Source: Deltaproteobacteria bacterium (GTDB lineage Bacteria; Myxococcota_A; Polyangia; JAAYKL01). From it: DNA of 36,011 bases. The position numbers and the translations under genes were made by a program. The stretch lies in the NCBI GenBank assembly GCA_016935665.1, contig JAFGQN010000128.1, positions 1-36,011 on the forward strand, given 5' to 3'. Under the pieces are notes generated by a model. That model saw nothing but the letters and a program-made list of their open reading frames with translations. It was not told the origin of the DNA and made no database searches. Positions 17,030-27,826 of this stretch are shown here, one piece after another; positions within the stretch are counted from its first letter, which is position 1, and every line of letters starts with the position of its first letter.

Positions 17030-17069
17030 TTCACTTTTTATGCAACTTTCTTTCCAAACGGCCGAATAG
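17030..17069 (+). promoter_or_regulatory. ECF-type promoter candidate, copy 1
   Basis: TTCACTTTTT (17030-17039), TGCAAC (17041-17046), then AAAC, and GCCGAATAG (17061-17069) lie 29 bp before the start of the ComEA-like gene. The same arrangement, base for base in spacing, occurs at 26724-26763 before the rpn gene. TGCAAC-N14-GCCGA fits the general ECF sigma pattern (an AAC-containing -35 and a CG-containing -10). Confidence 0.6.
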
Positions 17070-17098
17070 ACATTCGGAAAAATGGAAAGGTTGCAGAC

Positions 17099-17503
17099 AT
17101 GAAACACAGTGGACGGCAGATTACATCACTTTTATTTATATTGCTATTGGTATGCATTGGTTTAAAAGGCTATTTTCAACAACGTCACTCAGAAGAAATC
17201 ACCAATCAAAAACAATTTGAACAGCAACACTGCGATAGGTCAAAGGCCAAAAGCTGGCAACCACCCAGGCGACAGCTCTGCGGTATTGGTATCTTTCTCA
17301 ACAGCGATAACGCAAAAGCGCTGGCTTACCTGCCAGGGATAGGTCCAAAGCGGGCAAACGCCATTGTCGCATTTCGAAAAAAACACGGCCTGTTTAAGCA
17401 TGTTGCAGATCTCAAAAAGGTAAAAGGCATCGGCCCCACGCTGGTACAACGAATCGCACCGTGGATAGAAGATGTACCGCAACACCGCAAAATGGTGAAA
17501 TGA
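17099..17503 (+). CDS. ComEA-like helix-hairpin-helix DNA-binding protein, membrane-anchored
   Basis: A 134-residue protein: an N-terminal signal or membrane helix (about 10-27), a short linker, and a tandem helix-hairpin-helix domain with LAYLPGIGPKRANAIVAFRKKHG and LKKVKGIGPTLVQRI (residues about 78-125). ComEA-type HhH proteins bind double-stranded DNA in the periplasm and pull it in during natural transformation; short stand-alone homologues of unclear role are also common. The ATG at 17099 is chosen because AAAGG (17086-17090) lies 8 bp upstream and the membrane helix then sits at the N-terminus; the upstream part of the open frame is antisense to the RND gene. It converges on rpsI. A promoter-like element at 17030-17069 is shared with the rpn gene. 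Confidence 0.85.
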   Translation: MKHSGRQITSLLFILLLVCIGLKGYFQQRHSEEITNQKQFEQQHCDRSKAKSWQPPRRQLCGIGIFLNSDNAKALAYLPGIGPKRANAIVAFRKKHGLFKHVADLKKVKGIGPTLVQRIAPWIEDVPQHRKMVK

Positions 17504-26723: not shown

Positions 26724-26763
26724 TTCACTTTTTCTGCAACAAATCTCAAAAACAGCCGAGTAG
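26724..26763 (+). promoter_or_regulatory. ECF-type promoter candidate, copy 2
   Basis: TTCACTTTTT (26724-26733), TGCAAC (26735-26740), AAAC (26750-26753) and GCCGAGTAG (26755-26763) match the element at 17030-17069 with identical spacing. It ends 31 bp before the rpn start. The pair is the best evidence here for a shared sigma factor or regulator. Confidence 0.6.
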
Positions 26764-26794
26764 GGGAAAACTTTTTTTCAAGGAGGTTTCCCCT
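26762..26794 (+). promoter_or_regulatory. Hairpin around the rpn ribosome-binding site
   Basis: AGGGGAAA (26762-26769) and TTTCCCCT (26787-26794) are perfect 8-bp inverted repeats; the second arm touches the ATG. The loop contains a T-run and the ribosome site AAGGAGG (26780-26786). If transcription starts upstream of the first arm, the structure would present or hide the ribosome site. If it starts just after the promoter-like GCCGAGTAG, the first arm is only partly in the message. Confidence 0.45.
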
Positions 26795-27826
26795 ATGGAC
26801 AACGATGGCAGTTACAAACGGATATTCAGTGAACCCCGGATGGTGCAGGATTTGCTTACGGGCTATATTCATCAGGATTGGGTAAAGGACGCGGATTTCT
26901 CCACGCTGGCGCGGGTGAAGTCGGACCATATCAGTGACAACTGGGACCAGAGATTCAATGACACAGTGTGGAAGGTAAAGCTGCACAATTCCTGGATTTA
27001 TGTGTGCATCATGCTGGAGTTTCAGAGTCGGCCGGACCGATTTATGCCGCTTCGCATGATGACGTATCTGGGTCTGTTATACGAAGATATTGTTCGAAGT
27101 GGCCAATTGCTGCAAACAGGACGATTGCCACCGGTGTTGCCGGTAGTGCTCTATAATGGGACGCCGCGCTGGCAGCACTCTGTGGAAATATTCGATTTAA
27201 TAGAGCATTTATCCGAGGATTTTCAATGCTTTATGCCCAGACTATCGTTTCTGCTCATTGATGAGGGCGATGCGGTGCGCGATTCGCAAATATCCGAGGC
27301 AATGAAATCCTCGCAAAACCTGGTGACAGCTCTTTTTGCTCTTGAAAACGCGCCTGATAAATATGCTATACTCACCGTGGTTGAAGAGATGCTGCAATGG
27401 CTGCAACTACCAGCTCAGCAATCTCTTTCCAGGGCGCTGGCCGGATGGTTTGATCGCGTGCTTCGCCCTGCGAAAAGCAATATCGACGACATTCCCGCGT
27501 TTGGGGATTTAACGGAGGTCAATACGATGCTTCGAGAAACAGTACAGAGCTGGTACGAGGAAGCCGAACGAAAAGGGTTGGCGGCCGGTATAAAAAAGGG
27601 TGTGGCCGAAGGAATGGAGAAAGGAATGGAGAAAGGGATGGAGAAAGGAATGGAGAAAGGAATGGAGAAAGGAATGGAGAAAGGGATGGAGATAGGGGAG
27701 GAAAAAGGAGAAGCTGCCAAAACGTTGCAGTTTGCCAAAACAATGTTACAGCATGGCGAACCCATGGAGAAAATCATGACATACACCGGCCTATCCAGAG
27801 AAACCGTTGAATCCCTTGATAAGTAA
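26795..27826 (+). CDS. Rpn-family recombination-promoting nuclease / YhgA-like transposase
   Basis: A 343-residue protein with the YhgA/Rpn pattern: DGSYKRIFSEPRMVQDLLTGY at the N-terminus, then RFNDTVWKVKL and WIYVCIMLEFQSRPD, which supply the PD-(D/E)XK-like residues (Asp56, Glu75, Gln77), and PPVLPVVLYNG. Rpn proteins are DNA endonucleases that promote RecA-independent recombination in E. coli; they are widespread accessory genes. The C-terminus carries seven or more GMEK-type tetrapeptide repeats (about 273-300), common in this family and prone to length change. A strong AAGGAGG lies 8 bp upstream, inside a hairpin. A decayed second copy lies at 35681-35860. A promoter-like element is shared with the ComEA-like gene. 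Confidence 0.92.
   Translation: MDNDGSYKRIFSEPRMVQDLLTGYIHQDWVKDADFSTLARVKSDHISDNWDQRFNDTVWKVKLHNSWIYVCIMLEFQSRPDRFMPLRMMTYLGLLYEDIVRSGQLLQTGRLPPVLPVVLYNGTPRWQHSVEIFDLIEHLSEDFQCFMPRLSFLLIDEGDAVRDSQISEAMKSSQNLVTALFALENAPDKYAILTVVEEMLQWLQLPAQQSLSRALAGWFDRVLRPAKSNIDDIPAFGDLTEVNTMLRETVQSWYEEAERKGLAAGIKKGVAEGMEKGMEKGMEKGMEKGMEKGMEKGMEIGEEKGEAAKTLQFAKTMLQHGEPMEKIMTYTGLSRETVESLDK
27611..27694 (+). repeat. 12-bp tandem repeat inside rpn
   Basis: Seven near-identical units of GGAATGGAGAAA run in tandem and encode GMEK repeats. A few units have one changed base (GGGATGGAGAAA, GGGATGGAGATA). The 12-bp period keeps frame, so copy-number change by slippage would lengthen or shorten the C-terminal region without breaking the protein. 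Confidence 0.95.

Follow-up and report, generated by a model that had tools for sequence, protein, structure and literature searches.

A 40-nt promoter-like element that stands in two exact copies in the stretch of DNA analysed here (the window, 36,011 nt) belongs to a family of copies spread over the genome, and it is conserved in degenerate form in front of orthologous comEA, cpaC and EBP genes beyond the genus; a divergent FliA-like sigma factor is present throughout the same family of uncultured, Myxococcota-related bacteria. From these sequence observations we infer that the element is an alternative-sigma promoter, most likely served by the FliA/WhiG-family paralog, which would coordinate the genes of an uptake pilus with DNA-processing genes. 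We give this proposal as a whole a probability of roughly 0.68.

Two copies of the element in the window

The features of the window on which the analysis is based are as follows.

17030..17069, plus strand: promoter element copy 1, with a T-tract (17035-17039), a -35-like TGCAAC (17041-17046) and a -10-like GCCGAATAG (17061-17069)
17099..17503, plus strand: comEA-like gene, 134 aa, with a C-terminal helix-hairpin-helix pair (HHH_3, E 1.9e-18)
26724..26763, plus strand: promoter element copy 2, with a -35-like TGCAAC (26735-26740) and a -10-like GCCGAGTAG (26755-26763)
26795..27826, plus strand: rpn gene (Transposase_31 / PD-(D/E)XK family), 343 aa (PF04754, E 1.9e-23)
27611..27694, plus strand: seven four-residue repeats (GMEK six times, GMEI) in the C-terminal part of Rpn, read from the translation

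The initial annotation had described a shared pattern, TTCACTTTTT-n-TGCAAC-N14-GCCGA-n-TAG, and this occurs at both positions with zero mismatches, the ATG codons at 17099 and 26795 following 29 and 31 bp past the end of the element. A search of the whole window gave no further copy, even when three mismatches were allowed, and 100 dinucleotide shuffles of the window gave 0 matches, so that the observation is confirmed and lies far beyond chance. Its view that simple duplication is unlikely also holds, since the two upstream regions are alike in the core alone, and duplication of one upstream region was rejected on this ground. Transcription is predicted to start near 17075 for copy 1, following sigma28 geometry, and near 26769 for copy 2.

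The comEA-like product scores 57 bits against the comE model TIGR01259, under the cut-off of 152. For the second gene, the assignment to the Rpn family was borne out by PF04754, but its interpretation as a recombination enzyme is doubtful because Rpn proteins are now reported to be anti-phage toxins with intragenic antitoxins and variable four-residue repeats (PMC10327210). The repeats of the window Rpn resemble those reported for the intragenic antitoxins, and the protein may act in defence, as a toxin, rather than in recombination.

A genome-wide family of copies

The window is one complete contig of its own assembly (G000, 8.16 Mb), which was compared with two sister species (G001 and G002) and with further relatives, all named relatives being metagenome-assembled genomes (MAGs), as G000 also appears to be. 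The genome scan that the initial annotation had proposed revealed a promoter family rather than a pair. The pattern TGCAAN{13,17}CGGYCGANNRG has 28 matches across G000 versus 1 for the reversed control pattern, and TGCAACN{10,12}ACGGYCGANNRG has 24 versus 0 for the control, with 8 more in the two sister genomes. Among the other 56 genomes, three contain a single match each to the latter pattern, and these three have GC-rich surroundings, lack a T-tract and overlap long open frames. A sequence-only profile (E < 0.001) retrieves about 46 copies in G000, and 11 and 14 in the two sister species, with E-values that are optimistic because some of the same sequences went into the profile.

The consensus of 33 aligned copies is T-tract-TGCAAC-N14-GCCGA-tAgGGG, with an A/T-rich position after GCCGA followed by a G-rich stretch; some G001 copies have CGGACGA in place of CGGCCGA. 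The two halves lie equally far apart in 33 of 35 copies and one base further apart in the remaining 2, a count made on copies selected for halves 11-13 nt apart, which leaves uncounted a small number of degenerate copies that are spaced differently and lie mostly in front of transposase remnants. The copies are oriented towards genes, many of them mutually unrelated.

In G000 these genes encode an FHA-like/sigma-54 activator (EBP), a Tad-type secretin (cpaC), an FHA protein, lamin-tail-domain (LTD) lipoproteins, two RecQ helicases, ComF, a protein kinase, a tyrosine recombinase and Rpn proteins, and one copy precedes an operon whose genes, judged by eye, code for a Flp pilin, a prepilin peptidase, TadE-like proteins and CpaB. 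Of the Tad/Flp pilus parts, the secretin was identified by Pfam, and the Flp pilin and the CpaA- and CpaB-like proteins from reading of the sequence only. About 15 copies, several of them degenerate and together about a third of those in G000, stand before RAYT (REP-associated) transposase genes. The element is kept at orthologs in all three species for EBP, cpaC, FHA and Rpn (rpn homologs at L092 in G000, L172 in G001 and L191 in G002), and in two of the three for the LTD lipoprotein, an OMP-like lipoprotein and the tyrosine recombinase. Within the dprA loci of three genomes and the comEC loci of two, no element was found.

The tyrosine recombinase is an integron integrase, scoring 390 bits against TIGR02249 (cut-off 265).

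L144:1-1500 (G000:C85): gene for the integron integrase, preceded by the element and, further upstream, by two attC-like 67-nt repeats

The two repeats fold as hairpins, and a comparison of them with Rfam gave no family match. An IntI-type integrase with neighbouring attC-like sites, as in an integron, is present, and the relative of the integrase in G002 likewise carries the element.

Several further sequences adjoin individual copies. In G001 the element also stands before a large gene (L198:319-2301) whose product looks secreted and has teneurin-type domains (TTR, FN-plug), and two G000 contigs (L026, L043) stop right after a copy, with a start similar to that of this gene. Fragments after the copies at L009, L037, L175 and L176 were read by eye as putative IS91-type or IS91-like transposase frames, and a small GIY-YIG nuclease gene lies behind a copy in G001 (L201:549-791).

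The distance from GCCGA to the ATG is exactly 9 nt in the genes for an LTD lipoprotein, ComF, a RAYT transposase and two other proteins, all unrelated (L180, L045, L016, L033, L189). Elsewhere it is at least 23 nt, and a Shine-Dalgarno-like sequence is generally present. A distance of 9 nt combined with sigma28 geometry would place the transcription start at the A of the AUG, and we predict leaderless mRNAs for these genes. Several comEA orthologs outside the genus have about 10 nt between GCCGA and the start codon, as judged by eye.

Conservation across the family

Upstream regions of comEA, cpaC and EBP orthologs outside the genus were collected by tblastn from 11 further genomes, three of which share a genus. 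The degenerate element is found in 21 of 24 regions versus 0.67 expected from dinucleotide shuffles, a comparison that is descriptive rather than blind as the pattern was written after viewing the regions. By gene, it is present in 9 of 10 comEA, 8 of 10 cpaC and 4 of 4 EBP regions (0.36, 0.21 and 0.10 in shuffles). The three misses look element-like by eye: the comEA element of G006 lies beyond the fragment taken, and the cpaC regions of G010 and G009 contain TTTTTTTCGCACAATTTTTGAAAATTGGCCGATTAA and GTCAACTTTAGCGGCCTTGCGGCCGATATGGG, respectively.

The -10 is the steadier half outside the genus, being mostly CGGCCGA with the variants CGACCGA, CGGTCGA, TGGCCGA and CAGTCGA; CGGCCGATA is common there, and GCCGA is nearly invariant within the genus. 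The -35 drifts, appearing as GCAAC, GGAAAC, GCACAAT, GCACC or GACAC, and one genus (g2) mixes variants, with GCAAC before cpaC and GGAAAC before comEA.

A FliA-like sigma factor as the candidate reader

FliA/WhiG (sigma28) promoters have the consensus TAAAGTTT-n11-GCCGATAA (PMC2859248, PMC8325347), and in Rubrobacter WhiG promoters are known from a cluster of type IV pilus genes (PMC8325347). The element resembles them in its -10 (GCCGATA, that is GCCGA followed by A/T-rich sequence and G, in agreement with GCCGATAA), in the 19-nt offset between -35 and -10 and in having pilus genes as targets. It differs in its -35, which is GCAAC, GGAAAC or GCACAAT instead of TAAA(GTTT), and, compared with the Rubrobacter WhiG targets, in preceding genes for a Tad-type pilus, ComEA and recombination. 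A divergent FliA-like paralog is encoded outside the window.

G000:C195:63580-64266 (L139:8578-9267), minus strand: divergent FliA-like sigma paralog, 229 aa

Its best NCBIfam match is TIGR02479 (FliA_WhiG) at 88.7 bits, below the cut-off of 189.6, compared with 216 bits for the flagellar FliA of the same genome. The paralog is present in 14 of 14 family genomes (34-61% identity), separate from the FliA of the flagellar cluster (at C205), and the two proteins have different regions 4.2. More distant homologs of the paralog occur elsewhere in the class. The recognition helix begins with HTPSW in both genera with the GCACAAT-type -35 (g4 and g9) but not in the other aligned members; as the sigma tree neither shows nor excludes g4 and g9 as sisters, this link between -35 and helix may reflect a single event, and the mixture of -35 variants within some genomes makes the link to region 4.2 a loose one. 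There is no element near the paralog gene, and autoregulation was rejected for this reason. Canonical TAAA-N15-GCCGATA promoters were absent from the 16-kb flagellar stretch examined. G000 has 68 sigma-70-like matches, so other sigma factors could fit. The FliA/WhiG-type -10 and spacing, the family-wide conservation and the distinct region 4.2 make the paralog the leading candidate, and it probably reads the element.

Alternative explanations

GGAAAC and GCAAC are similar to ECF -35 elements, and the initial annotation took the pattern to suit an ECF sigma factor. In such a reading TGCAAC/GGAAAC would be the -35 and CGGCCGA the -10. The 68 sigma matches are indeed mostly of ECF size, but both the GCCGATA-type -10 and its spacing match FliA/WhiG promoters, every family genome has kept a FliA-like paralog, and we regard recognition by an ECF factor as unlikely and not supported. 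A transcription-factor site acting together with the housekeeping sigma factor would explain the T-rich flank and the strongly conserved half-sites. It would sit poorly with the fixed orientation and internal spacing and with the sigma28-like geometry; in several genes, moreover, the start codon follows after exactly 9 nt, which leaves little room for a separate downstream promoter. We hold this explanation to be very improbable. Scarcely credible is a repeat spread by RAYT elements that has no promoter role: the copies before RAYT genes, several degenerate, would suit it, but copies at unrelated genes are alike in the core only, and the conservation at orthologous comEA, cpaC and EBP genes across genera already contradicts it.

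A different kind of alternative asks what the regulon is for and leaves the promoter explanation standing. The pilus could serve attachment to surfaces or contact-dependent predation, the latter as in the Kil-like Tad system of Myxococcus, with ComEA and the recombination genes being secondary. As a Tad-like pilus of Myxococcus kills prey (PMC12075869), predation deserves to be taken seriously, either in place of DNA uptake or beside it. Many regulon members are surface lipoproteins, and no element lies within the dprA and comEC loci. Against this, the element is found at comEA across the family and also at comF, recQ and the integron integrase, and Tad/Flp pili take up DNA in other bacteria (PMC8513845). 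We consider predation or attachment as the main purpose less likely than not.

Proposed model

We return to the proposal of a promoter read by the FliA/WhiG-family paralog. This sigma factor would retain the flagellar-type -10 (GCCGATA) and spacing while reading a different, genus-specific -35 (GCAAC here), and would jointly activate a Tad/Flp-type pilus, ComEA, ComF, surface lipoproteins and a downstream FHA/sigma-54 regulator. The same switch would turn on genes for DNA processing or rearrangement (RecQ, the integron integrase, RAYT transposases and Rpn), so that DNA uptake and capture are coordinated. ComEA, ComF and a Tad/Flp pilus, as in Liberibacter (PMC8513845), suggest DNA uptake as the purpose.

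The joint DNA-uptake/recombination regulon put forward in the initial annotation appears largely supported by the genes behind the element: comEA, the Tad-pilus genes (the same predicted promoter precedes comEA and cpaC family-wide), comF, two recQ genes, the integron integrase and transposases. A complete competence regulon is less likely, as no element lies within the dprA and comEC loci. Going further, and at a little under even odds, a dedicated FliA-family sigma factor whose -35 preference has drifted between genera might act as master switch for DNA capture throughout this family of Myxococcota-related bacteria, coupling uptake pili and ComEA to an integron integrase; several transposase lineages and Rpn genes might have adopted the same promoter, partly leaderless, to act when foreign ssDNA enters.

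If the model is true, DNA uptake in this group, whose transformation is little known, would have a regulator that can be tested and a promoter code that can be read, and the uptake machinery would be linked directly, at the level of regulation, to integron recombination and to ssDNA transposases. The promoter would also be a handle for predicting further regulon members in related uncultured genomes.

Comparison with known systems

Flp/Tad-pilus-dependent DNA uptake occurs in Micrococcus luteus. It is also described in Liberibacter (PMC8513845). As in both organisms, Tad/Flp pilus genes appear here to be tied to DNA uptake, but in a different phylum and through a shared predicted promoter alone. 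In Vibrio cholerae, the TfoX/QstR competence regulon places uptake and accessory genes under a single control signal (PMC6237807), as would be the case here, whereas in our model control acts at a sigma-specific promoter and leaves dprA and comEC outside. The integron integrase of V. cholerae is triggered by the SOS response during cassette entry (PMC8191803), which likewise couples integrase expression to DNA entry. Unlike that SOS-mediated link, the integrase gene described here itself bears the predicted promoter of the uptake regulon.
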